Shown: positions 605 to 46,115 of the stretch, piece by piece | Layout: each line of letters starts with the position of its first letter | How positions within the stretch are numbered: the first letter of the stretch is position 1 | IMG/VR virus record: IMGVR_UViG_3300042876_000259 | Coordinates: 1-52,847 of that record | Direction: 5' to 3' (one strand) | From: a virus | DNA: 52,847 bases | Program-made: the position numbers and the translations under genes | Notes under the pieces: generated by a model | Seen by the model: only the letters and a program-made list of their open reading frames with translations | What the model was told of the DNA's origin: nothing | The model's database searches: none

Positions 605-994
605 TTACACCACCTTGAGGTACGCCGGGTCAGCGGCTTGATAGATCCAGTTGCCACTCTCACGGGTGAGGGTCAGCGCCCGGCCGTAAGGTACCGCCAC
701 CGTTACCCGCAGCGTGTTGCCGTTAGGGTTGGTGACGTCGACCGTAGCGCCCGGTATCGCCCGCTCGGCAGCGTTGCGGATGTCGTTGAGCGCCTTACGG
801 TTGAGTGGCTGGTTGCAGGCGGCCTCGAAGTCGCTACCCATGGGCGCCTTGAGCATCCCGTTGCCGCACCACCCGGTCGAGGTGAAGAGGGCGAGGAGCG
901 CAGCATTTTCCAGTCCGTTGTCCATGAGCGGCTGGCCGCCCTGGAACTGCAGGTAGGAGCCATTTACGGTGAGTATCAGTTTGGGGTCACTCAT
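605..994 (-). CDS. Baseplate wedge protein, Mu gp46-like (T4 gp25-like)
   Basis: 129 residues, the usual length for the GP46 family, which initiates wedge assembly and contacts the sheath. Typical features are the N-terminal strand region (LILTVNGSYLQFQGG), the STGWCGNGML segment and a C-terminal part with AERAIPGATVDVTNPNGNTL resembling the acidic-lysozyme-like fold of T4 gp25. Its start overlaps the stop of the gp45-like gene by ATGA, and the gp47-like gene starts three bases after its stop, so the three are translationally coupled. The assignment rests on order and motifs. Confidence 0.85.
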   Translation of the reverse strand: MSDPKLILTVNGSYLQFQGGQPLMDNGLENAALLALFTSTGWCGNGMLKAPMGSDFEAACNQPLNRKALNDIRNAAERAIPGATVDVTNPNGNTLRVTVAVPYGRALTLTRESGNWIYQAADPAYLKVV

Positions 995-1476
995 GGTACG
1001 GGAACTCCTGTGCTACCGGACCCCGGCGTTACACCGGAATGCGCGTGGGTCATCAGGCTCACGCCGTTTGCTACGACGTCCCCCGTGACCACCACCGCTC
1101 CGGTGAAGGTGAACACGCCTTCTGGGCTCATCGTGAAACTGGCCGCCATATTGCCGACCCGCACCGTGCCGTCCGGCTCGAGAAGGATCTGGGCGGCTAC
1201 CGCGCCGTCCGCCACCGAGTAGATGCGCTTCGCCCCCGGGGCCAGTTCGGGCGCTACGCCGTCGTTGGTCGCAACAGCCACCTTGGTCCCTTCCCCGAGA
1301 GCCAAGGCCACCACCAGCGAGCCATCCGGTGGGTTGGACTCCTCTCCGGCCTGTCCTATAAGCTGGACGGACTGGACATCCGGAAAATCCGTAAACTGGA
1401 CATGCAGGAGGGTGGCAGTCACCCCGCCCTCAACGACTGTCTCCCGCCCCGTTACTGTCCCTGCGCTGAGGTCCAT
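991..1476 (-). CDS. Baseplate central spike, Mu gp45 / P2 gpV-like, with HxH tip motif
   Basis: 161 residues. The middle (AAQILLEPDGTVRVGNMA, SFTMSPEGVFTFTGAVVV) is the repetitive beta-helical part of a trimeric membrane-piercing spike. The C terminus carries THAH (His144, His146) followed by SGVTPGSGSTGVPVP, the arrangement by which P2 gpV and phi92 gp138 trimers coordinate an iron ion at the needle tip. The ATG lies 25 bases inside the end of the gp27-like hub gene. Iron binding is inferred from the motif. Confidence 0.87.
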   Translation of the reverse strand: MDLSAGTVTGRETVVEGGVTATLLHVQFTDFPDVQSVQLIGQAGEESNPPDGSLVVALALGEGTKVAVATNDGVAPELAPGAKRIYSVADGAVAAQILLEPDGTVRVGNMAASFTMSPEGVFTFTGAVVVTGDVVANGVSLMTHAHSGVTPGSGSTGVPVP

Positions 1477-14660: not shown

Positions 14661-15917
14661 CTAGGGGGTAGTGTCGATGGTGACAAAACCGTCCGTTGCG
14701 GTGGTGGCGAAGATCGGTGCGTTCTGCATACGGATGGACAGGCGCTTCCAGTCGCTCGAGACGTACGCGTCGTGGTAGCAGGTATCCGGGCGGAGAACGC
14801 CGTCCGCCGCCTTGAAGTTCGGCGGTGCCGGGGGCGCCAGGGGATCGAAGCCGAAGAACTCCCTGTACAGCTGCTCCCTCATCGGGATCATGGGAAGGTT
14901 TTCCGGCGGCCCGAAATAGCGGTCACACCTTGCCTGGCTCGAGAAGACGAGAACCTTATCCTCGGGCATGTACTGGGTCCAGGCGTCCGCGTTGGTCGGG
15001 TCATTATACCCGTCGTAGTAGGTGAAGATGACGAGCTCGAAGCCCTCCGGGGTGATGAGGATACCGCGGGCCATGAAGCCACCGGCGATAAAACGGGACC
15101 AGCGGGCTTCCACACCGGACTTGCGGAAGAGGTCGTCCCCCACGCCGGCGCCGTTGTTACCGCCCCCGAACTGGATGAACTCGAAACGGCGGTTATCCGC
15201 CAGCGAGCGCGCCGCCGTGTTGGCGATAAAGTTTTTCATCGCGGTGGTGCCCATGAGGATACCGTCCGCGCGCATCTTGCCATTGATGCGGATGCGCTTG
15301 CACGCGGTCTCGATGTCCCCGATGGCGTCTGCCGCGGCGTTCGACCACGCGGTGCCGGCGGTGATGAAGTGGTCGCTGTTGCGGCGGAAGTCGTACATGA
15401 GGTCCGCGTTGGTAGTACCCAGCATCGCCGGCATGGTGCCGGTAAGGATGGAGGACGCCGCCAGGACTTCCTGAGTCCTGACCGTACGGCGCTGCGACTC
15501 CTGGGTGATCTTGATCGCCTGCATGCGCAGACGGGTGATACGGGTCTGACGCTGGTACGGGGTCTCACCGGCCACGCGGTTGAGCAGCGTGGAGCTATCG
15601 ATGTCGCCCTCTTCCTCGATCAGCGGGAATTTACGGCTGATCTCGGTGAAGCGCTCGGGGCGGATGTTCTTCTGGGCGGTACCGATCGAGCGGCTGACAG
15701 TGCCGCGGGGGACCAGCGCGGCGATCTTCTCGGTGCCACGGATGATGTCGATGTCAACCTGGTTGGCGTCCGGGCTGAAATGGGTTTCCGCGCCGGTCTC
15801 CGGGCGACCAAAGAAAGACAGGAAGCCGGTCGACACGGTGATGATTTTCTTCTCGTCGTAGGTGCCGACGAGGAAGCGGCTCAGAAGGTCCTGGCCTACG
15901 GGGGTTCCGTTACTCAT
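14661..15917 (-). CDS. Major capsid protein, lambda gpE family
   Basis: 418 residues. It carries the gpE-family signature: DANQVDIDIIRGTEKIAALV near the start, GETPYQRQTRITRLRMQAIK and TGTMPAMLGTTNADLMYDFR in the helical spine region, and a C-terminal ELVIFTYYDGYND ... YMPEDKVLVFSSQARCDRYF. It forms the HK97-fold icosahedral shell. It is preceded by the decoration protein and protease/scaffold genes in lambda order (B, C/Nu3, D, E), and has a good Shine-Dalgarno (AAGGAGG) just upstream. Confidence 0.92.
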   Translation of the reverse strand: MSNGTPVGQDLLSRFLVGTYDEKKIITVSTGFLSFFGRPETGAETHFSPDANQVDIDIIRGTEKIAALVPRGTVSRSIGTAQKNIRPERFTEISRKFPLIEEEGDIDSSTLLNRVAGETPYQRQTRITRLRMQAIKITQESQRRTVRTQEVLAASSILTGTMPAMLGTTNADLMYDFRRNSDHFITAGTAWSNAAADAIGDIETACKRIRINGKMRADGILMGTTAMKNFIANTAARSLADNRRFEFIQFGGGNNGAGVGDDLFRKSGVEARWSRFIAGGFMARGILITPEGFELVIFTYYDGYNDPTNADAWTQYMPEDKVLVFSSQARCDRYFGPPENLPMIPMREQLYREFFGFDPLAPPAPPNFKAADGVLRPDTCYHDAYVSSDWKRLSIRMQNAPIFATTATDGFVTIDTTP

Positions 15918-15946: not shown

Positions 15947-16426
15947 CTAGTCTGCGTTCTCGAAGTTCTCGATGTCGACGGCCGACTCAGCGTACAGACC
16001 GATGCGGGCCAGATCGTCGGAAATGCGGCGTACATTGACCGCCCCGTTGTCGGCGCCAGCCGGATCGTCGCTGCATACCGAGGCGAGAGTGAGGCTGTTC
16101 TCGAGGACGAGCTGGGCGCCGTCAAAGGTCGAGAGGTCGCCGCCTACAACGATCGGGCATGCGGTCACGTCGCCGGCGACCAGCGCTGCGGCCGAGATGT
16201 CGTCCCCCACGTAGATGCCACGGGCGGTGTTGGAGCCGTCCAGGGCGGCCACGTCGGTCAGCGGTACCCATTTACCCGTGGCCGCGACTTGGGCCATGAG
16301 GGTGTAGCGCTTGAGCGGGGTAGTCCTGCCGGCGTCCTGCTTGACGGTCTCGTTGTCGCGGTGGATGAGACGACCGGAGAGGAAGAACGGGTAATTAGTG
16401 AGGTCAAGACGGGATTCAACGGCCAT
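15947..16426 (-). CDS. Head decoration protein, lambda gpD-like position
   Basis: 159 residues. The segment KRYTLMAQVAATGKWVPLTD and the later GDVTACPIVVGGDL, ARGIYVGDDISAAALVAGDV resemble the HDPD/gpD-type trimeric decoration proteins that cement the expanded shell. It is placed between protease/scaffold and capsid as in lambda. Longer than lambda gpD (110), similar to other phage members of the superfamily. Confidence 0.8.
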   Translation of the reverse strand: MAVESRLDLTNYPFFLSGRLIHRDNETVKQDAGRTTPLKRYTLMAQVAATGKWVPLTDVAALDGSNTARGIYVGDDISAAALVAGDVTACPIVVGGDLSTFDGAQLVLENSLTLASVCSDDPAGADNGAVNVRRISDDLARIGLYAESAVDIENFENAD

Positions 16427-16429
16427 GGC

Positions 16430-16831
16430 TTAGTTACCCCCTTCCGATTTGAACTGCGCGATCGCCGCGCCCAGATCCATCTCGGACGAGACATCGGTTG
16501 CGTTTGCGACCGGGGCCGCGTTGCCACCCTGGCCCGGGGTGTCGGGGAGAGTGGCGGAAGCCGCAGCTGCCTGACCCCCCGCCTGCATCTCTTTCATCAT
16601 GTCGGCGGTCGCCACGATTGCGTCCAGGTTCGCCTTGGGCTGCGCCCCGCTCAGTACCTGCAACGCCATGGTGCCCACCTGTGCCGGGTAGTCCTTGTTG
16701 TTGAGGTACTTGCTGACCGCCGTTACGGTCGTCTGCATCTCCTCTTTCCCCTTCCCCTCAGCCGCGGTGATCGCCTGATCATACTCGGCCCTTGCCTCGG
16801 GGTTGGCGGCCAACAGTTCAGCTAGTTTCAT
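16430..16831 (-). CDS. Nested scaffolding protein from an internal in-frame start (lambda Nu3-like)
   Basis: Codon 244 of the protease gene is ATG 16831-16829, preceded at 9 bases by a strong Shine-Dalgarno GGAGGAG (16847-16841). The product is 133 residues beginning MKLAELLAANPEARAEYDQA, a helical scaffold-like domain with a Gly/Ala-rich end. Lambda and relatives make scaffold this way in excess over protease. The nested start is inferred from the ribosome site and not proved. Confidence 0.7.
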   Translation of the reverse strand: MKLAELLAANPEARAEYDQAITAAEGKGKEEMQTTVTAVSKYLNNKDYPAQVGTMALQVLSGAQPKANLDAIVATADMMKEMQAGGQAAAASATLPDTPGQGGNAAPVANATDVSSEMDLGAAIAQFKSEGGN

Positions 16832-17560
16832 CTGCTTGCCCTCCTCCGTTGAATTACCCGCGGCCGGTGCAGCGGGGGTTGAAAAACTCTGTGTGGGCGC
16901 GCCTTCCCCAAAGGGTCGTGCGTCGCCGTAAATCTGCATGGCGAGTTGCAAGTCGGCCTTCACACGGTCCGGGTTGGCCGTCAGCATGGCCATCGCTTCG
17001 TTGAATGTCGCCTGCGCAGTCGCCAGCGCGGTTTCCTTATCGGAATCGTCGCCGGTGTCGAGAATCCCATCGACAAAACCCTCGGTAACCATCTCCTCAC
17101 CAAAGAGGAACGTCTCAGCGTCCATCATGGCGGTGATATCCGCCAGGCTCTTGGCCTTGCCGCGTTTCGCAGTCTGCTTCACGAACTCGCGCGCCGAGAT
17201 ACCAGAGAGTCCCTTGAGGTAGTTGCCGTATTTCAGCACCTCGTTGTGGTCGCCGCCGGTCCACCCCCGCGCGTTGTGGATCATGTACACGGCGTTATCC
17301 TTGGCCATGACCTTGCCGCATGCCTGGGGAATGTACGACGCCATGCTCATCGCGTAACCCGCGAGGACCGCAGTGGTCTCGCCCGGGTAGTCGCGGATGA
17401 GGTTGTACATTTTCAGCCCGGCGCCCACCAAGCCGCCCGGGGAATTGAAGTGGAGCTCTACGGCGTCGCCGTTGGCTGCCCTCAACTCCGCGGCAAGATA
17501 CTCGGGGGTCGCCTGGTCATGCCAGCCAATTACCCCCTCGATTTCGATCCTTTTTACCAT
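16430..17560 (-). CDS. Head maturation protease (ClpP/S49 type) fused to scaffold region
   Basis: 376 residues. Residues 1-170 are a ClpP-fold protease: HFNSPGG (about 37-43), nucleophile Ser72 in GYAMSMASY, and His95 in YMIHN; an acidic third residue probably lies near MMDAETFLFGEEM. A disordered linker follows (PFGEGAPTQSFSTPAAPAAG), then a helical scaffold-like domain from residue 244. The arrangement parallels lambda C with Nu3. The protease is expected to cut the scaffold and itself inside the prohead. A nested start with its own ribosome site is described separately. Confidence 0.88.
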   Translation of the reverse strand: MVKRIEIEGVIGWHDQATPEYLAAELRAANGDAVELHFNSPGGLVGAGLKMYNLIRDYPGETTAVLAGYAMSMASYIPQACGKVMAKDNAVYMIHNARGWTGGDHNEVLKYGNYLKGLSGISAREFVKQTAKRGKAKSLADITAMMDAETFLFGEEMVTEGFVDGILDTGDDSDKETALATAQATFNEAMAMLTANPDRVKADLQLAMQIYGDARPFGEGAPTQSFSTPAAPAAGNSTEEGKQMKLAELLAANPEARAEYDQAITAAEGKGKEEMQTTVTAVSKYLNNKDYPAQVGTMALQVLSGAQPKANLDAIVATADMMKEMQAGGQAAAASATLPDTPGQGGNAAPVANATDVSSEMDLGAAIAQFKSEGGN

Positions 17561-17572
17561 CGTCGTACTCCT

Positions 17573-18040
17573 TTAGATCATCTGGCCGAGGAACACCGGC
17601 AGGCCGGTCAATGCTACCTGGTCAAGCTTCGCCTGCAGATCGTCCAGATGGTCCTCCTCGTCCGCGAGGTTGTCCTCGAGCAGTTTTCTGGTACCATCAT
17701 CTTTAAGCTCCACCGCCAGCACGATCGCCTGGTTGTAAGTCTGAATCGCCGTGGTCTCACTCGCCGCGTCCGCCGAGAAAGTCCCGGGGATGTCATACGC
17801 GATGTTCACGGGGTCCAACCGGCCCGCAACGGGCGTCCCTCTCAGGTAGAAGATTCGATCGAGGACAGCGTTGTAGTGCTTCACCTCGTCCGCGATGCGC
17901 TCGTCTATGTACTCGACCAGTTCGTTGAACTGCAGGTTCTTGTACCGCGCGCGGTTGACGTGGTACTGGTTGATGGCCGTCAGTTCCTGTACCAGGATCT
18001 GATTCAGCGCGATGATCAGCCGGGGGTCCGCTTTCGGCAT
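17573..18040 (-). CDS. bfr: Bacterioferritin-like diiron protein inside the head operon
   Basis: 155 residues from ATG 18040, chosen because AGGAG lies 8 bases upstream; an ATG two codons earlier (18046) is only 2 bases from it. The sequence aligns along its full length with bacterioferritin: NQILVQELTAINQYHVNRAR, ERIADEVKHYNAVLDRIFYL, DNLADEEDHLDDLQAKL. All six E. coli Bfr ferroxidase ligands are matched: Glu19, Glu52, His55, Glu95, Glu128, His131 (E. coli 18, 51, 54, 94, 127, 130); Tyr26 matches Tyr25. The haem-ligand Met52 position is Val53. Bfr stores or oxidises iron as a 24-mer in the cytoplasm. It sits 12 bases upstream of the protease and 12 bases downstream of the lysozyme gene. Late co-expression is implied. 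Confidence 0.92.
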   Translation of the reverse strand: MPKADPRLIIALNQILVQELTAINQYHVNRARYKNLQFNELVEYIDERIADEVKHYNAVLDRIFYLRGTPVAGRLDPVNIAYDIPGTFSADAASETTAIQTYNQAIVLAVELKDDGTRKLLEDNLADEEDHLDDLQAKLDQVALTGLPVFLGQMI

Positions 18041-18052
18041 GCTCATATCTCC

Positions 18053-18712
18053 TTAGCGAGGCAGCGCGTAGCCGCTGGTGGCGGCATGGCCCCGCAGGGT
18101 TTCGTACTCATGGACGTCCCGCTGCACATTGTTTTTGACCCGGTACGCCCAGGTGTCCAGAAATGGCATCTTACGTGGGTTCGCGTCCACAATCTGAATG
18201 TACCTAGCGTGGGTCAACCCGATCAGGTGTACGTAGAGCTGTACCTGATCAATCTCGTTGAGCCGCTGGATGGTGCTCGGCCCAACCCGCCCGTCAACAG
18301 CGATCGGTGCGCGAGGCCAGCCGGTAAGGTTGATAGCGCGTTGGAGTATACGGGCCGAGGTTCCGGTCCCCATGTTCACAGCACAATCGAAGACCTGGTT
18401 GGCGATGATCTGGTTCCGTACCCGGTTAAGCCGCAGTGCATTCCAGAAATCGCGCTCATACAGGAACGCCGCACGGTCCAGCGTCAGCCCCTTGATGTCC
18501 TCGCGAGGGTAGCTTGCCGCTGCGATCCCGAATTTGGTCCCTTTGAGGGCCCCAACCCCAACCTTGCCGCCCGTCCAGTTGCCGGAGTCGCCCCTCATGG
18601 CCTGGTACCCGCCCTCATGGCCAAAGGTGTACTCAAGCGCGGGCTTGATGCTGGCCCCGTGAGCCGAAACCGCCAGGAGTACCGCCGCTATGACCGCAAG
18701 CAACCTACCCAT
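18053..18712 (-). CDS. GH108-type lysozyme (endolysin) with N-terminal signal/SAR-like segment
   Basis: 219 residues. Residues 5-19 are hydrophobic (LAVIAAVLLAVSAHG), consistent with a Sec signal or signal-arrest-release segment. HEGGY at 32-36 carries the catalytic Glu33 of GH108 muramidases (the phage N4 gp61 type). The C-terminal part (APIAVDGRVGPSTIQRLNEI) is the associated peptidoglycan-binding module. It would cleave peptidoglycan after export. It overlaps the portal stop by 8 bases and lies far from the holin-like cassette at 46-47 kb. Confidence 0.87.
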   Translation of the reverse strand: MGRLLAVIAAVLLAVSAHGASIKPALEYTFGHEGGYQAMRGDSGNWTGGKVGVGALKGTKFGIAAASYPREDIKGLTLDRAAFLYERDFWNALRLNRVRNQIIANQVFDCAVNMGTGTSARILQRAINLTGWPRAPIAVDGRVGPSTIQRLNEIDQVQLYVHLIGLTHARYIQIVDANPRKMPFLDTWAYRVKNNVQRDVHEYETLRGHAATSGYALPR

Positions 18713-20441
18713 TCAAAGCCTCCTCGAGCATGTCCTGTATGTCCGCGAGCTGCCGAGCCAGCTGCTTTACTACCGCGGGCTTGGCCGGCTGCGGACTACC
18801 CGGGGGTGCGTTGCCCGGTTCGTTCCACGGGAGCGCCTTGTACGGCGCGTACAGTTTGTTGTTCGCCGCAATATTGTCCGCCGCGCTGGACCCGTTGTGG
18901 TCACGCGCTTCACGGTCGGCGTTGGTGATACCCAGTTCGATCGCGTCCCTGCGGGCCTTGACGCTCTTGGCCGGGTCGATGTCCGGCGGACCGCCGCCGA
19001 CCCAGGTGCAATTAAGCCAGGCCGCGCGCATGCGGGGGTCGGACCAGCCCGGGCACTGGATGCGGCCGGCGGCGATCTCACCGGCGAGCCACATCTCGAC
19101 AACGGGGTTGAGGAACTGGGCCGCCATGTAAATGCGCTCCTGCCGCACGACGTCCCAGAACAGCAACAGCGTCGCCCTGGACGCGCTGTAGTTCTGTCCG
19201 AACTTCATCAGCACTACTTCCAGCGGGATGTTGAGGCTGGCCGCGATGTAACCCGCAAAGTCGCCCACAAAGTCGCCGTAGCTGTCGCCGGGGGCCGTGT
19301 TGGCCGGGAAGGTGATCTTACTGCCTTTTGTCAGGCTGGCGACGAACATGCTTCCGGGGGTGTCAAACGTCGCCTCGGGCACTTGGTAGCAGGTATCGAT
19401 CCCCGCCGCCAGTTCGGTGCTGGGGTTAGCCGTGGAGACCGCCCCCGAAGCCAGCGCGGAGTTACTGGAAAAGAGGCTTTGCGCGGGGCCGGCGCCCTGG
19501 TTGGTAAGCACGCCTTCAAAGGGGTTTACCGCGTCCTCCTCTTTGCTGGGTTCTATGAACCCGACGATGCAGGACTGGTTGATCGCCTTCTTGATCACCG
19601 CGGCCGAGAAGTCGGTAATGTTCTCGAACTCTTGGATGGCGTGCGCGAGACGGGTGTACCCCCGGCCCTGCCCGGCGTACTCGCCCTCGAACCCGTGGAT
19701 CATGCCGCGACGGCCGCCGGGGTACGTCGCCGGAACTCGCGTGCTGCCATACGTGCCGTCCGGGTTACGAGTCCACACTTTGTAGGCGTTTTCGCGCCCC
19801 CGGTCATCGCGCTCGATGCCGTCAAACAGGAGATACTGGAAACCGTTGGTCGTGGTGGCTACGTTGAAACCGTACAGGTTGGTGAAAGCGTCCCCACGGA
19901 TCTGGTCTGCGTCGATAAACTCGAACTGCAGGGGGTTTTGGAGACGGGAATCGTCCTCTGTGTAGTAGAGCCGGACAAACTGGTCGTTGTCCCTCTGGCG
20001 GAAGAACGCCCAGTGGCCCTGGGCACGGTAGAAATTGAACTGCTCGGCGCGGTGAGCCTTCACGTCGCTGGCGTAAAGGTGGAAACGCATGCTGATATCG
20101 CGCCCCTTCTCAGTCGCCTCTTCCTTGCTGATCCCGAGGATGTCGGCGTTCGGGCAGAGTTCGAGACGCAGGCCGCCATCCGCCACGGTATCGGCGGTCC
20201 GCGTGACAACCGAACGCGCCTGCACACTGTCCTGCATCGCGGTGCGCGCGTTCCGGCGGGTGAGCGTGTGGTGGATCACCGCACCCGTACCGGATGCCGA
20301 AAGTCCGTTCGGCCATTTCTCGCCGGTGGTGACGCGGCCGGAATACCGGTACGGGCCCGGACCTGCGAGGTACTGGCGGGGCTGGTTGTCCATCACATCG
20401 ACCAGGCCCTCGGCCAGCTTGTCAAACGCGCCGGTACTCAC
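18705..20441 (-). CDS. Portal protein, lambda gpB family
   Basis: 578 residues beginning at a GTG that overlaps the upstream stop. Family signatures include NARTAMQDSVQARSVVTRTA, YYTEDDSRLQNPLQFEFIDA, the stem/crown region ITFPANTAPGDSYGDFVGDF, and FGQNYSASRATLLLFWDVV near the end. It forms the dodecameric DNA gate at one capsid vertex and binds terminase and neck. A Pro-rich C terminus with a final helix (LARQLADIQDMLEEAL) follows. Confidence 0.9.
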   Translation of the reverse strand: MSTGAFDKLAEGLVDVMDNQPRQYLAGPGPYRYSGRVTTGEKWPNGLSASGTGAVIHHTLTRRNARTAMQDSVQARSVVTRTADTVADGGLRLELCPNADILGISKEEATEKGRDISMRFHLYASDVKAHRAEQFNFYRAQGHWAFFRQRDNDQFVRLYYTEDDSRLQNPLQFEFIDADQIRGDAFTNLYGFNVATTTNGFQYLLFDGIERDDRGRENAYKVWTRNPDGTYGSTRVPATYPGGRRGMIHGFEGEYAGQGRGYTRLAHAIQEFENITDFSAAVIKKAINQSCIVGFIEPSKEEDAVNPFEGVLTNQGAGPAQSLFSSNSALASGAVSTANPSTELAAGIDTCYQVPEATFDTPGSMFVASLTKGSKITFPANTAPGDSYGDFVGDFAGYIAASLNIPLEVVLMKFGQNYSASRATLLLFWDVVRQERIYMAAQFLNPVVEMWLAGEIAAGRIQCPGWSDPRMRAAWLNCTWVGGGPPDIDPAKSVKARRDAIELGITNADREARDHNGSSAADNIAANNKLYAPYKALPWNEPGNAPPGSPQPAKPAVVKQLARQLADIQDMLEEALNG

Positions 20442-20656
20442 CTGCCCGCCCCCGAACGTAGTTTAGCCACGGCTTCCCCCAGCTCGCTGGCGAGGTCTTT
20501 AGCCCAGGCTTCTTTATGCTCGCGCTCAAAACGCTCCGCGAAGTCCTGGTACAGCTTTTCGGTATCGATCTCGGGCGGCGGGGGCGCGTCTACGCTCTGC
20601 TTCCACGAGAAAATGGTTATCCCGAAGATCTTGAAGGTGTACGTCGTACTCTTCAC
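20438..20656 (-). CDS. Small hypothetical protein, portal-adjacent
   Basis: 72 residues, starting MKSTTYTFKIFGITIFSWKQ, then a Pro-rich turn and a long amphipathic helix (DTEKLYQDFAERFEREHKEA). It overlaps the portal gene by 4 bases and the upstream gene by 4 bases. No family recognised. The tight packing between connector genes suggests a small head or connector role. Confidence 0.6.
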   Translation of the reverse strand: MKSTTYTFKIFGITIFSWKQSVDAPPPPEIDTEKLYQDFAERFEREHKEAWAKDLASELGEAVAKLRSGAGR

Positions 20657-20940
20657 CTACGCCTCCGCAGATTCAAGTTGACGATGCCCGCCCCGGTAAG
20701 CCGGTTGACATCGCGTTGGATTTGGTTTTCAAGCTGGGTGATAAGGCTCTGGATCTCTTCCGGCTTCCTGTTGGACGCATACTGCGCGCCCTCGCCGGAA
20801 TCAAACTTGTACGACTGGATGACCGCACGGGCTGGGTCGAGGGCAGCATCAAGCGCGGTGTAGGCGAGTTCTAACTGCGCCTGCTTCCTGGCAATCCGGG
20901 CCCGAATGACACCTTGCGACGTGGGGTCTAGGTAGCTCAT
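20653..20940 (-). CDS. Small head-tail connector-like protein with YKFDSGEG motif
   Basis: 95 residues: a helix (GVIRARIARKQAQLELAYTA), the motif YKFDSGEGAQ, a second helix (EEIQSLITQLENQIQRDVNR) and a basic tail (NLNLRRRR). Small proteins with an F-D-x-G-E-G turn and two helices are common between terminase and portal in lambda-type heads, in the place of gpW. The gpW-like role is inferred from size and position. Confidence 0.55.
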   Translation of the reverse strand: MSYLDPTSQGVIRARIARKQAQLELAYTALDAALDPARAVIQSYKFDSGEGAQYASNRKPEEIQSLITQLENQIQRDVNRLTGAGIVNLNLRRRR

Positions 20941-21337: not shown

Positions 21338-23413
21338 TTAATTGATTTTGCGCGCGGTTTGCTGAGTCAGCCAATCCAGCACCCATTGGTGGTTGATCTT
21401 TTGGAGCTCGTAATCCGTGGGCTCCGTTCCCCACGGTGTCCGACCCACCGATTTGGCCGCCGCACGGAATGCCTGGATCTTGGCGGCGAGGAAGTAGTCC
21501 CCCGCAGCCAGGTTGTAAACCCGGAGATCCAACGCCTCGTTACGCCGGCCCCCGTCATGAAAACTCCCATCGCGTCGCTTTTCCTCAGCGGTGAGCGCGA
21601 GGAAATACTTTTCACTCCGATCAGCGGGGAACGCGCAGAAACCGGGTGCTTGTAAATGGCCCGGCTTCCGGGCGATCTTGAGGTTGTTGTAGGTCATCGT
21701 CTTGTAGAAGTTGGTGGATACCTCGATGAACTGAACACCGCCCTGCCTCTGCGACATCGCTGCGCGCCACCTGATAAAGTTGCTGGGGCCGGCTTCATCA
21801 CCGATGCTTTTGCCTTTTTCCTCGTTGCGCCGGATACGCAGCGCGTTGACGCCCTTGGACGCAAAAGTGTTTTCCCACCGTTGGGCAAACGCGTACACGA
21901 TGTCGACCCAGTTACCATCCCCCGAGTCGATGAACACGGTTTGAACTGCGAAAGGCATCCCATCGGCCTGCCTCGTTATGACCATGCCCCCGTTCGCCGC
22001 CCAGTCGTTCAGCTTTTCCCATGCACCGGAAAAGGCGTCCGTGGTGGTGTCGCCCAGGATGACCTTATGAAGCAACGACCAGGTTTTATGCCTCGCCCCG
22101 TGGCCGAGGATTTCCAGTTCGAGACGCGCGGGGTTGTTGGGGTCCGTGACGCTGCCGGACTGTACGTCAACGCTCATCGTGGTGAAGAGCACTCCATCCG
22201 GCACGTCGCGGCCGTCCAGGTACTCTAGCCGGTTCTCGATGACGTTCTCGACCTTGGGGCGGGAGCCGCGCTCCTGGTACGGCACCCCGAGGTACAGGTT
22301 GACCCACGACCTCATGCCGTCCGGCGTGTTCTTCGCCTCGAGGTACTTGTCGTACATTTTCAGCCAGGTCATCATCCCCACGGGGGAGTACATCGAGCTG
22401 ATATAGTAGCTTCGCTGGTTTTTCTTCCGGGGCTTGCATGTCGGTTGCCAGTACGCCCCATTACGCGGGTCCAGCATGACCCTCTTGTGGTGGTTGTAGA
22501 TCGGTTCGTGGCAGTGCTCGCACTCGTACCAGACCTTGGACAGCTGGCCGTCACTATTGTACTCGGGGCGCAGCTGCCGAAATTTAAGCCATTCCATGAT
22601 CCCGCAGTGCGGGCAAGGCACCATATAAACGCGCTGGTCCCCCTGCTCGAACTTCTTGCGCATCATGGAGGTGTCCCATAACCCGGGTGTCGAGTACCGC
22701 AGCTTTTTGGCCCGGGCGCCCCAGGCATTGGTACGGGCGTCCACCACGTCGAGGAAGTTACCCTCGCCGGTCTTGAGCTGCGCCGGGGCGCCGTCGACCT
22801 CATCCACGATGACGATACGCTTGGAGTCGGAACGCAGGGACGCAGCGGACTGGGAGCTCACGATGTTGAGAGTCCCGCCCGCGTACTCCTTGCTAAGAAC
22901 CTTATCCCCTGAGCGGCGACTTTTGGTCTTCGTGGGGTCGATCTGGGCAGACACTCGGCCACGCATCCCGATGCTGTCGATGAGTGGGTCAAGGCGTTTG
23001 GTCGACCAGATTTCCGCCAGGTCATCCGTCGCCGTTGCGTACAAGATCTCGGTGGGGCACGCGCTCATGTAGTAGCCGACCACGTTCTCGGCCCAAGCGG
23101 TCAAACCGAGCTGGGCGCCTTTCAGCACATCCGTCTCCTCAACGGGGCTGTACGGGCTCATGTTGTCGACAATCTCGATTCCGTACGGGGTCTTGTAGTT
23201 GTCCCAATAGCCGGGGAAAGGCGTGTTGACGGGTAGGACGCGGAACCCATGCACCCACTCGGATATGAGCGCGGGGGGTGGGTCGACAGGTTTCTTTTCA
23301 TTCTCCGCAAGCAGGAAACCCAGATCGCCGGTGGACTCCGCTACGGCCCGGCGCCGTTCATCGTGCCGGCGGTAATACCGGCCGCGCTTCTTGGGTTGGG
23401 GTGTGCCGCTCAT
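21338..23413 (-). CDS. Terminase large subunit, lambda gpA (GpA) family
   Basis: 691 residues, normal for GpA. The ATPase region includes VLKGAQLGLTAWAENVVGYY (Walker-A-like segment of the family), IVSSQSAASLRSDSKRIVIV and the Walker B VDEVDG. The Cys-rich patch PCPHCGIMEWLKF ... YECEHC is typical of GpA. A C-terminal nuclease part carries TVFIDSGDGNWVDIVYAFAQ. It translocates DNA into proheads and cuts it. GpA-type enzymes usually package from cos sites. It overlaps TerS by 4 bases. Confidence 0.92.
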   Translation of the reverse strand: MSGTPQPKKRGRYYRRHDERRRAVAESTGDLGFLLAENEKKPVDPPPALISEWVHGFRVLPVNTPFPGYWDNYKTPYGIEIVDNMSPYSPVEETDVLKGAQLGLTAWAENVVGYYMSACPTEILYATATDDLAEIWSTKRLDPLIDSIGMRGRVSAQIDPTKTKSRRSGDKVLSKEYAGGTLNIVSSQSAASLRSDSKRIVIVDEVDGAPAQLKTGEGNFLDVVDARTNAWGARAKKLRYSTPGLWDTSMMRKKFEQGDQRVYMVPCPHCGIMEWLKFRQLRPEYNSDGQLSKVWYECEHCHEPIYNHHKRVMLDPRNGAYWQPTCKPRKKNQRSYYISSMYSPVGMMTWLKMYDKYLEAKNTPDGMRSWVNLYLGVPYQERGSRPKVENVIENRLEYLDGRDVPDGVLFTTMSVDVQSGSVTDPNNPARLELEILGHGARHKTWSLLHKVILGDTTTDAFSGAWEKLNDWAANGGMVITRQADGMPFAVQTVFIDSGDGNWVDIVYAFAQRWENTFASKGVNALRIRRNEEKGKSIGDEAGPSNFIRWRAAMSQRQGGVQFIEVSTNFYKTMTYNNLKIARKPGHLQAPGFCAFPADRSEKYFLALTAEEKRRDGSFHDGGRRNEALDLRVYNLAAGDYFLAAKIQAFRAAAKSVGRTPWGTEPTDYELQKINHQWVLDWLTQQTARKIN

Positions 23414-24353: not shown

Positions 24354-25088
24354 TTAAACCCGCTTAGAGGGTGGGGTGGTCAGGCGGCTGATCGTCTTGG
24401 CCCAGAGAGCGTTGAGATCAGTCTGCTTGAAGTACGCACCGCGGGCCTGCTGCAGCCAGCGGAGACGCTTGGGCTGCTTGTGCTTGGTCTGCTGCATGAG
24501 TTCCAGGGAGCGGAACAGTGCCTTGCCGTTCTGCGTCGGGCCCGCGAGCTGGTTGAGGTTGCGCGGCAGTTTGAAAAAGCCCTTGCCGATGTGGACCAGG
24601 CGGCGCTCTTTCCGGCGGAACAGCATGGCAACAAACCCGCCGTAGTTCGAGGTACCCCCCAGCGGCGTGTAACCGTCCTCGCCAGGCTTCACGACTTCCG
24701 TGCTTCGTTTCAGCCTGGCGGACGGCATCATCTGGCGCCGGAAGTCCCCGCTGCGGGACGCGGTGGTGCTGATCCTCTTGCGGTCGGTCTGCTTTCCGAG
24801 CTCCTGCTCGACCCACCCGCTGAAACGCGGCCCGGCCACCGAGCCCGCGCGAGACCGCTGCTGTGAAATCGGAACGCTCAAGCTGGTCTTGTCGTACCGC
24901 ACCTTGCCGGAAACGAACCGGGCGTTACGCACCACCATCTTTCGGTCGATCTCGGCCAGAGCGAGCTGGCGTGTACCGTACGCAAAGGCGTTCAGCATCA
25001 TGCCGCTGGCTTTCTGTACCAGCTTGGGCTGTTTTCGGCACCAAACACCGAGCGCCCGGACCTGTGAGACGTCCACTTGCCATTCCAT
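24354..25088 (-). CDS. Hypothetical basic protein, first gene of the late operon
   Basis: 244 residues from ATG 25088; the frame extends upstream to a TTG at 25124, but no good ribosome site distinguishes them. It begins MEWQVDVSQVRALGVWCRKQ and is rich in Arg/Lys (KTSLSVPISQQRSRAG, KHKQPKRLRWLQQA), so it probably binds nucleic acid or is a structural minor protein. The fragment KASGMMLNAFAYGTRQLALA is reminiscent of phage minor tail or virion morphogenesis proteins. No firm family. Confidence 0.55.
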   Translation of the reverse strand: MEWQVDVSQVRALGVWCRKQPKLVQKASGMMLNAFAYGTRQLALAEIDRKMVVRNARFVSGKVRYDKTSLSVPISQQRSRAGSVAGPRFSGWVEQELGKQTDRKRISTTASRSGDFRRQMMPSARLKRSTEVVKPGEDGYTPLGGTSNYGGFVAMLFRRKERRLVHIGKGFFKLPRNLNQLAGPTQNGKALFRSLELMQQTKHKQPKRLRWLQQARGAYFKQTDLNALWAKTISRLTTPPSKRV

Positions 25089-30806: not shown

Positions 30807-31712
30807 TTACTCATGGGGGACGCCCATGAAGTTGAGAACTTTGTCGATCCCAAAAGCGGGGAGCGCGTAATGCAAATTCGGGTGTGTGTGTTTCATGGTA
30901 ATGAATCGATTGGTGCCGGTCTTACGCATTTCTTCTTGAACCCCAAACATACACAACGAGCAGCCTGTGCAGTCGTAATGCTGATATATGGGCGAATGCG
31001 GGATCATTGATTTCATAGCCATGATGTCTTCATCGGTCCAAAATGAGAGCGGACGGGACTGGATCAGGCCCTCGAAAGAGTTACACCCATGCTGTATGTA
31101 ACTCAGCTTGCGCGGCCTACTATCGCCCGCCATGGTTCCAACAAAGGGTTTCAGCCCCGTTTTTTTCTCAAAGTCTTTAAGAGGTTTCTTTTTAAGGTAG
31201 TAACAACACTTTTCAGAAATTTTAAAAGGGGCGTCAAGAAGATAATGGTACTTAGCGGGGATGACCCCCGTACTTTGAAGACGGTTAGTATTGGGATTGA
31301 GGCCCCCGTGTAATCGTAATTCTTTTTGAACGGGGCTTTTAGTGTTCCGGTACCTGTCTATCGCCATACTTACGTCTTTGCTTACCACCGGGTACCCATA
31401 AACGTCGCATACAGATTTAAAGTTGTGCCTAGGACGTAGCCGTATTACGTTTTCTATGGTACGAACAAAGGCCCGAACCTCGGGGAACTCAAGACCCGTA
31501 TCTACAAATACGGCCGGTACTTGGGGGTAGAGCGCGCGTATAAAAAACAGCATAACGGTGCTATCTACCCCGCCGGAAAAAGCCGCGTAGACCTGGCCGT
31601 CCCAGAATTCATACCACTGACGGATACGGCGCAAGGTCATTTCTATCTTGACGTTGAGTGGTAGGCCTTGACGTTGGGCCAGAAAAATGCCCCGCAGTTG
31701 GTTTTCGTTCAT
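30807..31712 (-). CDS. PAPS-reductase / DndC-like PP-loop protein
   Basis: 301 residues from ATG 31712, which overlaps the upstream stop (ATGA); a longer reading exists but runs through the upstream gene. YAAFSGGVDSTVMLFFIRAL (about 42-61) is the PP-loop that binds ATP, and AVFVDTGLEFPEVRAFV is the next conserved block. Four Cys lie in the second half: CCYYLKKKPL and CTGCSLCMFG, a likely iron-sulfur site as in DndC. The family includes PAPS reductases and DndC of DNA phosphorothioation. In phage the substrate is unproven. No dndB, D, E or cysteine desulfurase gene is seen. Confidence 0.82.
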   Translation of the reverse strand: MNENQLRGIFLAQRQGLPLNVKIEMTLRRIRQWYEFWDGQVYAAFSGGVDSTVMLFFIRALYPQVPAVFVDTGLEFPEVRAFVRTIENVIRLRPRHNFKSVCDVYGYPVVSKDVSMAIDRYRNTKSPVQKELRLHGGLNPNTNRLQSTGVIPAKYHYLLDAPFKISEKCCYYLKKKPLKDFEKKTGLKPFVGTMAGDSRPRKLSYIQHGCNSFEGLIQSRPLSFWTDEDIMAMKSMIPHSPIYQHYDCTGCSLCMFGVQEEMRKTGTNRFITMKHTHPNLHYALPAFGIDKVLNFMGVPHE

Positions 31713-32050
31713 TTCCGGCCACCAAGCGTTACAGTTTTGTCGGGCATAACCAGCGAAACCCGTTGCTGACCGCATTCGGTCTTTAAAAGCGCGGCCAACG
31801 CAAAAAGCCGATCTTCTAGGTCGCTTGCCGACATCGGGAAACGGGGGTACTGGATCATCCCGACGATAGCGCCCGGTTCTTCCCCGTCGACATAGAAAAA
31901 CTCGGTAGCTGTTACCGTCACGCACAGCTTGTGAGCGTTCACGAAGTAACGGCAAACATCTTTGACTACAGAAATGGGCAGAACTTCGTCGGTGTACCCC
32001 ACGCGCAGCCCAACATAAATCTGTCCGGCCCAGGTCTTTACTGGTTTCAT
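31709..32050 (-). CDS. Hypothetical protein upstream of the PP-loop gene
   Basis: 113 residues from ATG 32050 (ATGA overlap with the upstream gene). Begins MKPVKTWAGQIYVGLRVGYT; contains FFYVDGEEPGAIVGMIQYPR and ends VSLVMPDKTVTLGGRK. Looks like a compact alpha/beta protein. Coupled to the PP-loop gene on one side and to the C-x2-C protein on the other, so a joint function is possible. Confidence 0.6.
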   Translation of the reverse strand: MKPVKTWAGQIYVGLRVGYTDEVLPISVVKDVCRYFVNAHKLCVTVTATEFFYVDGEEPGAIVGMIQYPRFPMSASDLEDRLFALAALLKTECGQQRVSLVMPDKTVTLGGRK

Positions 32051-32262
32051 ATCGCACCCCACTTAAAAGCTAGTTGCCTCTCACGTCTGCGCGGTTTCAG
32101 CTTTACGCTCGTGGTGAATGACTGACAGCGCGCCGCCTTTACTTCCATGAAAGCCAACCCGTCTTGAAAGGTTACCCGGCGCAACACTATCTTGAGCGCC
32201 ATCTCCATCGCCGGGTGGTAGTGGTCTACAAAGCTGCAATGGATGCAGGAGCGGGCGGTCAC
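32047..32262 (-). CDS. Small CxxC/His protein
   Basis: 71 residues from GTG 32262, overlapping the primase stop (GTGA). The N terminus MTARSCIHCSFVDHYHPAME combines C-x2-C with H residues, a possible metal site; the C terminus is basic (KLKPRRRERQLAFKWGAI). Function unknown. Confidence 0.55.
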   Translation of the reverse strand: MTARSCIHCSFVDHYHPAMEMALKIVLRRVTFQDGLAFMEVKAARCQSFTTSVKLKPRRRERQLAFKWGAI

Positions 32263-35559: not shown

Positions 35560-35819
35560 GCGGCACCTCCGAGCATCATTTCGGCGCCCATCTTGGCGGT
35601 AAGCATGCGGCCCTCAAGAAGCTGCAGGTCGGCGGGGGTGGACGGGGTGGCAACGTGCGCCATGAGGATCAGCCCGCAAGGCAGCGCGGCGGTAACCTTG
35701 ATGCTCTTGCCCTCGGAAACCCAAAGGTGAAGGGGCTTCTTGGTGTAGGACACGCCGACTGTTGTGCCCTCGAGCGCTTCGTCGTATTTCTGCCATCCGG
35801 CTTGTTCGTAAATGGTCAT
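35556..35819 (-). CDS. Hypothetical protein between helicase and nuclease
   Basis: 87 residues, overlapping both neighbours by 4 bases. Starts MTIYEQAGWQKYDEALEGTT; contains KKPLHLWVSEGKSIKVTAAL and a helical end. No family recognised. Confidence 0.55.
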   Translation of the reverse strand: MTIYEQAGWQKYDEALEGTTVGVSYTKKPLHLWVSEGKSIKVTAALPCGLILMAHVATPSTPADLQLLEGRMLTAKMGAEMMLGGAA

Positions 35820-38578
35820 TGCGCGGCTCCTCGTTGAATGTCTGCATAGATTCTCTGGGTCAGCGCCTCGGCCTCAGCGCGTTTAAGCGTCTGAGCGGTG
35901 AGTACGTCGATCCCAAACTTGTAGAAAAATTCCCTGTAGCTCTTGGCGTCGGGCTGCCCTGCCGCCCTTCTGAAACCCGCCCACCAAGCGATCTGATCGC
36001 GCAGCGCTGCCAGGCTGTTAAGCCTTTCAGCATGCAGGTTGGCGACGTGCTTAGCATTCATAAATGGCTGCCCAGCATTTTGAAGGCGTGACCGCACTGC
36101 GTCCGGGTGCTCGTTGGCGCGTTCGATCTCGTCGTACATCGCCCGCAGTACCTCACCGTCCAGTTCATAGGGATCACCGTCGATAAATTCCACGGCGCTA
36201 CGCTCTGCCGGGACCGGAACCCAACCGCAGTACGGACAGCAAGGCTCGGTGCGCTCATACGGCGCCATGCACTCAGGGTTAAGGCAGTTACGCCAGGGGA
36301 CGGTGCCATCGTCCTCGGTCTTGGCCTTACGTTCCCGGCGGTCCATCGACCATACACGCGGGCGGTCAGGCGGCCCCCCGTGGCGGATGACGTTACCCAC
36401 ATGGTCGATGATGATGGCTTTGAGCTTGCCCTCGAGCAACCGCAAGGCCCTGCCGAACTGCTGTGCGTAGAGCGCGTACGACTGCGTGGCTCGGGCCATG
36501 CTGACCACCTCGATCGCGGGGAGGTCAAACCCCTCGCCAAACAGGTCCACGTTGACGAGTTGCAGGATCTCACGACGGCGGAACCGACGCAGGACATCGC
36601 GCCGTACGTTGCTTGGAGTCTTGGCGCTCAACACTTCCGCCGGTACGCCCGCTTGCTGGAACCTTACCGCCAGCTCGCTCGCTGTCTCGACGTCAGGGGC
36701 GAAGGTTACCCCCAGCTTGCCGCGCGCAAACCGCAGGTAGCCGTCGATGACGTCGCCCATAACAGACGAGTCACGGGTCTGCGTGGCGAGCTGCTTACGG
36801 ATGTAGTCCCCGTCTGCGCCGGTTGCTACTGAATCAATTTTGAAGTCTTTGGATTGATAGACGATAACGCGGTAATCGGTGAGGTAGCGGGTTCTGTTGC
36901 CGTTCCAGTCGGGGAGTCCGTCGATGAGGTCACGCATGCTCGGCCCCGTGACCATCGTGTCAAACACTCCGTCATGGTGGCGGCCCAACCCGCGACCATC
37001 CGCACGCTCCGGGGTGGCAGTCACGCCCAGACCAACAGCGTTGGGGAACAACTGGATAGCCTTGCCCCATTTGTTGGCGTCCAACAGGTGATGCGCCTCG
37101 TCCTGGACCCACTTACGTACGCGAGGAGCCCAGCCCATCAGTTCATGGTAGTGCGGGCTATCGGGCCTTGCCCACGAGACAAGCGTATCTACCCCGGCGG
37201 CTGCGCATTGCGCATTCGGGTGGTAGTAGCTGCGCCCCAGTTCTTCCATTTCTGTTTGAACTATGTCACGGATCACATTCTGGGGGCCGATGACTCTGAA
37301 TCTCACCTCGTCCCTACTTAACGCAAGGGCCATCTGGCCTACCAATTCTTGACGGTGCGCAATAGCAACGCTGGCGCCCTCCGTATCTCGTAATTCATCG
37401 CTGAATATAACCGTGTTGTGGGTTACCGTGAAGTCACCAAGGAGAAACCGTCTATCGTTCCCCGCGAGCTCAAAGCCGTAGTAATCCCCCCGCCCAATCG
37501 GTTCTACCTTTATACCGACCATTAGCACATCTTTTTTCTGTTCGCGAGGACCGGCTTTACGCCTCGGTACTCTGCACGGGACCTGATCAAGATGTCCGCT
37601 AATGGAGACGCGGAAATAAGATCCCACGGCCCCGGTATTCGCGCAAGTCTTTTGGCATGGCGCAACATAGGATGCAAGTCCAAGAGATCTGGCAATAAAG
37701 GCGACGTCAAAGGCTAATGCCTCCTGCTTGAAAACCAGATCGTAGACACCGTTGTTGAAGAACCCATCCGTGTCAATAACGCCGGCGAGTAATTCTAAGC
37801 GTTCGCTACGGGGCGCGACCTTAAAGGCATGCGGGATGTGTTTGTTGAGGAGAAGATCAAGCCGCCTGAGTTCGTTAAAAACAGAATTACGATGATGCCC
37901 GCGCCCAAGTGACAGTTCGTCAGGCCCGGAGATACGATAAACTGCGATGCGCTCGGGGCTGGTGCTGACACGCATCACATGGCCGATGCTTTCCGCATAG
38001 CGCGACCATTCGCTTATAACCTCAGCGTCTACGTTGGCTATTTCGGGGGATCGACTTGAACCGTCACCGAGCCAGACGCCCAGGATGTAAGGCGTAAGGA
38101 TAGACTGGGCGGGGGGATAAGAGAAGTCCACGCCTGCCCGGTACCCTTTCGCAACGTGTTTAAACGTCTTGTTGGAGTCCAAGTACGCGCCTATCGTTAC
38201 GTCCGCGATATCCCCCGCATAAAACTTATCCCCTCCGCATTGCACCGAGTGCTTGCAGTTTGTGATGCGAAGCGAAAGGATATGGTCGGAATTCACGACG
38301 TAAGCATCGCCGCGGGTCGGCGTAACTCGGTACAGTTCATCTACGCCATGACAAATTGAAGTAACGAGCCGGGGCGTACTATCTGGGCCCATAAGAAAAT
38401 CGCCTATAACTATCTGTTCTACGGGCTTACAGTTCCCATCGAACAAAAGTATAGGTGTTCCTTTTCCTAAACACTTGCCGCTGCCCGTGGGACTGACTGC
38501 AAGGACGTTACGATGCCCCTGAGCCCATGCGGCGCGTATATCTTGTTTCAGCTGGTATTGGTATGGACGAAGATTCAT
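35816..38578 (-). CDS. SF2 DEAD/DEAH-type helicase interrupted by an intein
   Basis: 920 residues as translated; the spliced helicase would be 567. Exteins: RPYQYQLKQDIRAAWAQG, Walker A VSPTGSGK (28-35) continuing TVIFSDEL after the intein, motif II WVQDEAHHL, motif III LGVTATPER, the SF2 C-lobe GVTFAPDVETASELAVRFQQ, DVLRRFRRREILQLVNVDLF, GFDLPAIEVVSMARATQSYA (motif V/VI region) and QQFGRALR. A C4 zinc site (CLNPEC ... CCPYCG) lies near the end. Phage replication or recombination helicase. Splicing is required because the P-loop is split. Confidence 0.88.
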   Translation of the reverse strand: MNLRPYQYQLKQDIRAAWAQGHRNVLAVSPTGSGKCLGKGTPILLFDGNCKPVEQIVIGDFLMGPDSTPRLVTSICHGVDELYRVTPTRGDAYVVNSDHILSLRITNCKHSVQCGGDKFYAGDIADVTIGAYLDSNKTFKHVAKGYRAGVDFSYPPAQSILTPYILGVWLGDGSSRSPEIANVDAEVISEWSRYAESIGHVMRVSTSPERIAVYRISGPDELSLGRGHHRNSVFNELRRLDLLLNKHIPHAFKVAPRSERLELLAGVIDTDGFFNNGVYDLVFKQEALAFDVAFIARSLGLASYVAPCQKTCANTGAVGSYFRVSISGHLDQVPCRVPRRKAGPREQKKDVLMVGIKVEPIGRGDYYGFELAGNDRRFLLGDFTVTHNTVIFSDELRDTEGASVAIAHRQELVGQMALALSRDEVRFRVIGPQNVIRDIVQTEMEELGRSYYHPNAQCAAAGVDTLVSWARPDSPHYHELMGWAPRVRKWVQDEAHHLLDANKWGKAIQLFPNAVGLGVTATPERADGRGLGRHHDGVFDTMVTGPSMRDLIDGLPDWNGNRTRYLTDYRVIVYQSKDFKIDSVATGADGDYIRKQLATQTRDSSVMGDVIDGYLRFARGKLGVTFAPDVETASELAVRFQQAGVPAEVLSAKTPSNVRRDVLRRFRRREILQLVNVDLFGEGFDLPAIEVVSMARATQSYALYAQQFGRALRLLEGKLKAIIIDHVGNVIRHGGPPDRPRVWSMDRRERKAKTEDDGTVPWRNCLNPECMAPYERTEPCCPYCGWVPVPAERSAVEFIDGDPYELDGEVLRAMYDEIERANEHPDAVRSRLQNAGQPFMNAKHVANLHAERLNSLAALRDQIAWWAGFRRAAGQPDAKSYREFFYKFGIDVLTAQTLKRAEAEALTQRIYADIQRGAAQ
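37415..38473 (-). mobile_element. Intein with LAGLIDADG homing endonuclease, in the helicase P-loop
   Basis: 353 residues (36-388 of the precursor), from Cys36 directly after GSGK to Asn388 in VTHN, with Thr389 as the +1 residue. Splicing blocks are complete: block A CLGKGTPILLFDGN, block B NSDHILSL, and C-terminal FELAGNDRRFLLGDF and VTHN. Two LAGLIDADG motifs, PYILGVWLGDGSS (128-140 of the intein) and LLAGVIDTDGFF (228-239), identify a homing nuclease. Insertion between Lys and Thr of the P-loop is a favoured intein site. Confidence 0.93.
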
Positions 38579-45779: not shown

Positions 45780-46115
45780 ATGAGCAAGGAAGGACTCAAG
45801 TACGACGAAGGAAAGACTCTCTGGTACCGGATGCCGCTAACGGTGCTCAAGCCGCTGGCCGACGTGTACAACAACCCCGCCGCCGGTGGAAAGTACCCCG
45901 CCTTTAACTGCCTCCTGCCTTTCGAGGATGGTGATCGGAGATTCTACGACGGCTTGATGCGCCACCTCGAGGCCAGCCAGTTGGATCCGCTGGCAGTCAA
46001 CGAAGAGGATGGCGGGGTGTACCACCTGGCGCAGGTAGCCTTTAACGCGCTCCACCGATTGCACAACGCGCTCCAGGCTCGGGAAGCGGAACTGGCGAGA
46101 CGTACTACCCCCTAG
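45780..46115 (+). CDS. DUF5664-like protein (dATP/dGTP diphosphohydrolase-associated)
   Basis: 111 residues from ATG 45780 behind AAGGAGACAAGG. The pattern GLKYDEGKTLWYRMPLTVLK, PLADVYNNPAAGGKYPAFN, RRFYDGLMRHLEASQLDP, EDGGVYHLAQVAFNALHRLH is that of DUF5664, a helical domain often called dATP/dGTP pyrophosphohydrolase. It may sanitise or adjust dNTP pools during replication. Last gene of the operon, immediately before a bidirectional terminator. Confidence 0.8.
   Translation: MSKEGLKYDEGKTLWYRMPLTVLKPLADVYNNPAAGGKYPAFNCLLPFEDGDRRFYDGLMRHLEASQLDPLAVNEEDGGVYHLAQVAFNALHRLHNALQAREAELARRTTP

Follow-up and report, generated by a model that had tools for sequence, protein, structure and literature searches.

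In the window, a 52,847-base virus record from an uncultured tailed phage, the genes for terminase, portal, ClpP-like protease, decoration, and major head proteins follow the lambda order, and the tail genes are of the Mu/P2 type (Table 1). The phage lineage is one with a lambda-like head and a Mu/P2-like contractile tail. A gene for a bacterioferritin (Bfr)-type ferritin is found on the same strand, with the endolysin gene 6 bp upstream and the ClpP-like protease gene 12 bp downstream. The initial annotation assigned it to the head operon, and the gene does lie among the head genes where it is placed for co-expression, but the location is more exactly a lysis/cargo slot inside that operon. 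A tRNA-Gln call at 24898-24991 was set aside because it falls inside an ORF.

Table 1. Features of the window discussed in the text
Feature	Position	Strand	Basis or remark
Contractile-tail spike, GpV Apex motif	991..1476	minus	HAH near the C-terminus
Major head protein	14661..15917	minus	PHROG 29
Head decoration protein	15947..16426	minus	PHROG 49
ClpP-like head maturation protease	16430..17560	minus	PHROG 94, 1.1e-44
Bfr-type ferritin gene	17573..18040	minus	155 aa; Pfam, TIGR00754, and PDB matches, ligand alignment
Shine-Dalgarno AAGGAG of the Bfr gene	18048..18054 (approximate to 1-2 nt)	minus	Overlaps the endolysin stop codon
Endolysin	18053..18712	minus	GH108 and PG_binding_3; N-terminal signal-like hydrophobic segment (read from the sequence)
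Portal protein	18705..20441	minus	PHROG 21, 8.4e-52
Small head-completion (gpW-like) protein	20653..20940	minus	Position; homologues between TerL and portal in relatives
Terminase large subunit	21338..23413	minus	PHROG 15, 1.2e-139

The longest ORF at the Bfr locus spans 17573-18046 on the minus strand and encodes 157 aa. In the stretch ...CTAAGGAGATATGAGCATG, the motif AAGGAG stands 2 nt ahead of Met1 and 8 nt ahead of Met3, and the start at 18040, which yields 155 aa, is therefore preferred. The initial annotation had named no strand; the plus strand of the same interval is read in another frame.

Spacing, strand, codon usage, and flanking genes revealed no sign of a bacterial insert and no bacterial neighbour gene around Bfr. 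Its GC3 is 0.816 compared with 0.67-0.85 in the neighbours, and its codon usage has a z of 1.45; the gene is embedded among same-strand phage genes and has phage codon usage. That bacterial DNA was joined into the contig by an assembly error would fit the fact that this is the single known contig with the gene, and that Bfr itself, used as the query against viral and genome contigs, returned no close relative of the protein. Such a chimera is nevertheless most improbable, given the distances of 6 and 12 bp to phage genes of the same strand and matching codon usage, the overlap between endolysin stop codon and Bfr Shine-Dalgarno site, the absence of a bacterial neighbour gene, and the comparable placement of ferritin genes in independent phages described below.

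The protein matches Pfam PF00210 (Ferritin; E=1e-25, score 90.8, cut-off 24.5 bits), and its matches among PDB sequences are bacterioferritins (E down to 1.7e-20). TIGR00754 (bfr) scores it at 93.5 bits, under the equivalog cut-off of 125.55, and its identity to the compared sequences is only 28-39%. Sequence comparison places it beyond reasonable doubt in the ferritin superfamily, and the original reading of a phage-encoded bacterioferritin of 155 aa is upheld by the Pfam and PDB matches and by the Shine-Dalgarno site. Glu19, Glu52, His55, Glu95, Glu128, and His131 align with residues 18, 51, 54, 94, 127, and 130 of E. coli Bfr, so that all six diiron ligands are matched, as had been claimed. 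Tyr25 and Asp50 are also common to the window Bfr, E. coli Bfr, and P. aeruginosa BfrB, and the accessory iron residue His46 of E. coli Bfr is replaced by Glu. An AlphaFold2 monomer model built from eight sequences, a check that the initial annotation had proposed, has a mean pLDDT of 92.4 and contains four long helices (8-37, 41-67, 86-113, and 117-147) and a short fifth helix (149-156) as in Bfr; its top Foldseek matches among solved structures are Bfr/BfrB (TM 0.94, rmsd ~1 Å). Assignment to the Dps class failed, as the ligands are intra-subunit and Bfr was the best match in every search. Together, the alignment and the model show a predicted Bfr subunit fold with a complete diiron ferroxidase centre.

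Unlike E. coli Bfr and P. aeruginosa BfrB, the window Bfr lacks the haem methionine. The alignment confirms the reported replacement of the haem-axial Met52 (E. coli numbering) by Val53, and Met is present in all 26 other aligned rows, among which the loss appears unusual. As Met52 occurs even in rows beyond the Bfr clade, Met alone is no proof of haem binding. Phe26, which is situated at the haem site of Bfr (PMC10301331), corresponds to His27, and haem might thus be bound via another ligand. Bfr no longer binds haem once Met52 is lost, and the haem-free ferroxidase subunits of hetero-bacterioferritins perform oxidation but without reduction; M52L or loss of haem lowers iron release, E. coli Bfr without haem stores more iron, and in SoBfr2 the M52L exchange also made the oxidation rate drop (PMC6529640, PMC12120770).

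Bacterioferritins that lack Met52 but keep an intact ferroxidase site are accordingly a known protein type. The haem-free subunits M. gryphiswaldense Bfr1 and S. oneidensis SoBfr1 have the Bfr fold, intact ferroxidase ligands, and a residue other than Met at position 52, as does the window Bfr (PMC6529640, PMC12120770). These subunits are bacterial and have a haem-binding partner gene, whereas the phage gene stands alone, and the likeness was drawn outside our 27-row tree, which left out the Bfr1 sequences. What is new is the occurrence of a Met-less Bfr with an intact site in a phage and its location in a lysis slot inside the head operon.

The portal-protease interval was assessed in relatives gathered by terminase and portal. 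It was complete in 62 loci, a few of which are overlapping or near-identical contigs; eight had no insert (-58 to 82 bp) and the remaining 54 carry 167 to 6,682 bp. Annotated cargo includes lysis genes and other small genes, small membrane proteins among them; the lysis-type cargo includes a phage lysozyme (L042), a GH108 homologue of the window endolysin (L043, 4.8e-41), a GH19-like match slightly below the cut-off (L044), and a peptidase M15 (L052). The interval is thus a variable cargo/lysis site. No ferritin was found near the slot in any of the 62 loci, nor anywhere in 40 whole relative contigs with a search that recovers ferritin in 10/10 positive phage records; a weak ferritin-profile match in one relative (L103) is a coiled coil and was rejected. 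This indicates that Bfr is cargo gained by one phage line rather than a conserved head gene. The search of phages for a Bfr in this slot, as suggested in the initial annotation, was negative among relatives.

Motif scans of IMG/VR identified ferritin genes in phages unrelated to the window phage. L132 (9736-10209) and L135 (2560-3033) encode a complete Bfr in the gene order portal, glycosyltransferase, 69-aa protein, Bfr, putative scaffold, and major head protein. In L140 the terminase follows three genes after Bfr, in L143 a Bfr-like gene (854-1336) lies in the tail operon between virion/tail genes and the sheath and tube genes, a short way ahead of a virion protein gene, and in L129 Bfr is located among unnamed genes on a 250-kb contig. 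All six ligands and Met52 are retained in each of these, and in three of the four lineages the gene adjoins head, terminase, or tail genes. FtnA-like proteins of ~195-205 aa were found in eleven further loci (L145, L146, L148, L151, L153, L158, L160, L161, L163, L165, and L166), and in the four contexts that were read (L145, L148, L151, and L165) the gene lies within a virion gene block. That Bfr/Ftn genes recur next to the structural genes of unrelated phages is new; no earlier report of it was found in the open-licence papers that were searched. The L151 protein matches PHROG 16594, a family of unknown function that could be renamed ferritin. In BFVD, three uncultured-phage entries named prohead protease (A0A6J7XDU5, A0A6J7WPK9, and A0A6J7WIS1) match the Bfr model over a ferritin-like region and are possible protease-ferritin fusions.

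The 27-row tree puts the window Bfr in a 7-row clade of cellular and phage Bfr (support 98/97), on a long end branch of 2.18 that could reflect weaker constraint or a change of function. L132 and L143 are placed elsewhere, so independent acquisitions look likely, and the same is suggested by the fact that L132/L135, L140, L129, and L143 belong to phage lineages other than that of the window and partly to other Bfr branches.

Several candidates were rejected. Salmonella contigs have ribosomal operon neighbours, the Bfr of Acinetobacter "phage MD-2021a" is next to rpoZ, spoT, and bfd, that of Pseudomonas "phage Y5" is next to argG-, pyrC-, and ahpC-like genes (read from the sequence), and that of MT835709 has Bfd-like and other chromosome-like neighbours. 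Within IMG/VR, host bfr next to a prophage edge seems to explain L020/L021 and L134, and L130 is a chance motif within a 2255-aa protein. The records OQ572407.1, MT835709.1, and CAKLQH020000003.1 are labelled phage, yet bacterial chromosome surrounds bfr; the host-DNA verdict covers the phage-database Bfr records that were checked, a set to which MT840072 does not belong.

Late iron handling by phages has been discussed mostly via tail iron (the Ferrojan Horse idea) and Dps. A lake-sediment virus with a putative Bathyarchaeia host has been reported to carry bfr as an auxiliary metabolic gene (PMC10904782). That gene differs in its archaeal host and Thermoproteota derivation, and the likeness covers the presence of a bacterioferritin in a virus, not the haem Met or the place in an operon. 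Dps and Mn-catalase have been described in "Gratiaviridae" and other gut phages and proposed to ease oxidative stress (PMC8008677). Phage Dps, in "Gratiaviridae" and Lactobacillus phages, is like the window Bfr a phage-encoded member of the diiron ferritin superfamily, but Dps is a 12-mer with an inter-subunit site, whereas the window protein is a Bfr-type subunit with an intra-subunit site. In samples of Vi01-like phages, a ferritin-like protein, gp217, was detected by mass spectrometry, and an iron-uptake entry route proposed for these phages proved dispensable in the host that was tested (PMC10892097).

We give about an even chance to the reading in which the gene is expressed late and its product is an iron oxidase that lacks haem. 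While the cell is dying, this protein, by itself or together with host Bfr, would be a one-way sink for Fe(II). A cellular bacterioferritin gene would have entered, as cargo, the lysis slot that separates the portal and head protease genes, where the 6-12 bp spacing, the Shine-Dalgarno sites, and the common strand point to a late transcript shared with the endolysin and capsid genes. Judging by its intact ferroxidase site, the product would oxidise and store Fe(II). Haem is the route for iron release in Bfr, and a protein without the Met would probably release iron poorly. Late in infection it may thus act as a one-way sink, either in a 24-mer of its own or as part of host Bfr cages, and could lower free Fe(II) and Fenton damage during genome packaging. 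Only one protein of the window matches PF00210, so no haem-binding partner gene is present there, and the host could supply such a subunit. A motif search of the window for a Bfd-like CxC..CxxC protein gave no credible candidate, which fits a sink without a release partner of its own; the two motif matches lie in unlikely arginine- or proline-rich frames and were rejected. Against a sink, the oxidation drop of SoBfr2 M52L implies that the lack of haem does not simply improve a cage as a sink, and the Glu at the His46 position, the long branch, and the His27 in the haem pocket weigh on the same side. The presence of ferritins in unrelated phages suggests that late iron handling benefits phages.

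The same placement beside virion genes could also mean that the ferritin, as a cage or a dimer, accompanies the head or aids its assembly and is passed on to the next cell. The ferritin genes that lie within or beside virion genes of L132/L135, L140, L143, and the FtnA-type L145, L148, L151, and L165 argue for such a virion or prohead component, as do the ferritin-like regions in the BFVD prohead protease entries and the detection of gp217 in Vi01-like samples (PMC10892097). We consider this rather unlikely for the window phage, as the slot of its relatives is empty or filled with lysis or other cargo, which makes Bfr dispensable for heads, and no packaging signal was identified in the window Bfr. 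Moreover, CsCl-purified AXL1 virions contained one host Bfr, represented by two peptides, which suggests that Bfr cages can co-purify (PMC9206674). In its general form, the proposal is that ferritin-family proteins were recurrently and independently recruited to the late or virion blocks of at least four unrelated phage lineages and either travel in or on the virion or assist in building the head. This we regard as unlikely; if true, some phages would be iron-oxidising or iron-carrying particles.

A rather unlikely variant holds that the subunit mainly replaces haem-binding subunits in host bacterioferritin cages and so locks host iron. Met-less ferroxidase subunits naturally co-assemble with haem subunits in M. 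gryphiswaldense Bfr1/2 and S. oneidensis Bfr1/2, and hetero-Bfr cages also accept a homo-Bfr subunit that is added to them (PMC6529640, PMC12120770); the low identity of the window Bfr to the compared sequences (28-39%) speaks against such entry. A role in supplying or buffering iron for one of the phage's own iron proteins, such as the contractile-tail spike with its iron-holding apex, is in our view very unlikely. The window does encode a spike with the GpV Apex motif, which holds iron in P2/Mu-type spikes, but P2/Mu-like phages without ferritin commonly have such spikes, and a haem-free Bfr is a poor iron releaser. Compared with these alternatives, the one-way sink remains our preferred reading. 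A predicted ferroxidase-competent, haem-free Bfr encoded with capsid and lysis genes, together with the ferritins of other phages, provides a concrete gene set for tests of whether phages lock iron to protect DNA during packaging, starve competitors, or export iron in virions.

Elsewhere in the window, a helicase ORF (35819-38578, minus strand) has an N-terminal match to a Hom_end-associated Hint domain and is a possible intein carrier, and a PAPS reductase-domain protein is encoded at 30810-32057 (minus strand). Near the family A DNA polymerase, an ORF at 45780-46112 (plus strand) matches the N-terminal domain of dATP/dGTP diphosphohydrolase, for which base-modified DNA or control of the nucleotide pool is possible.
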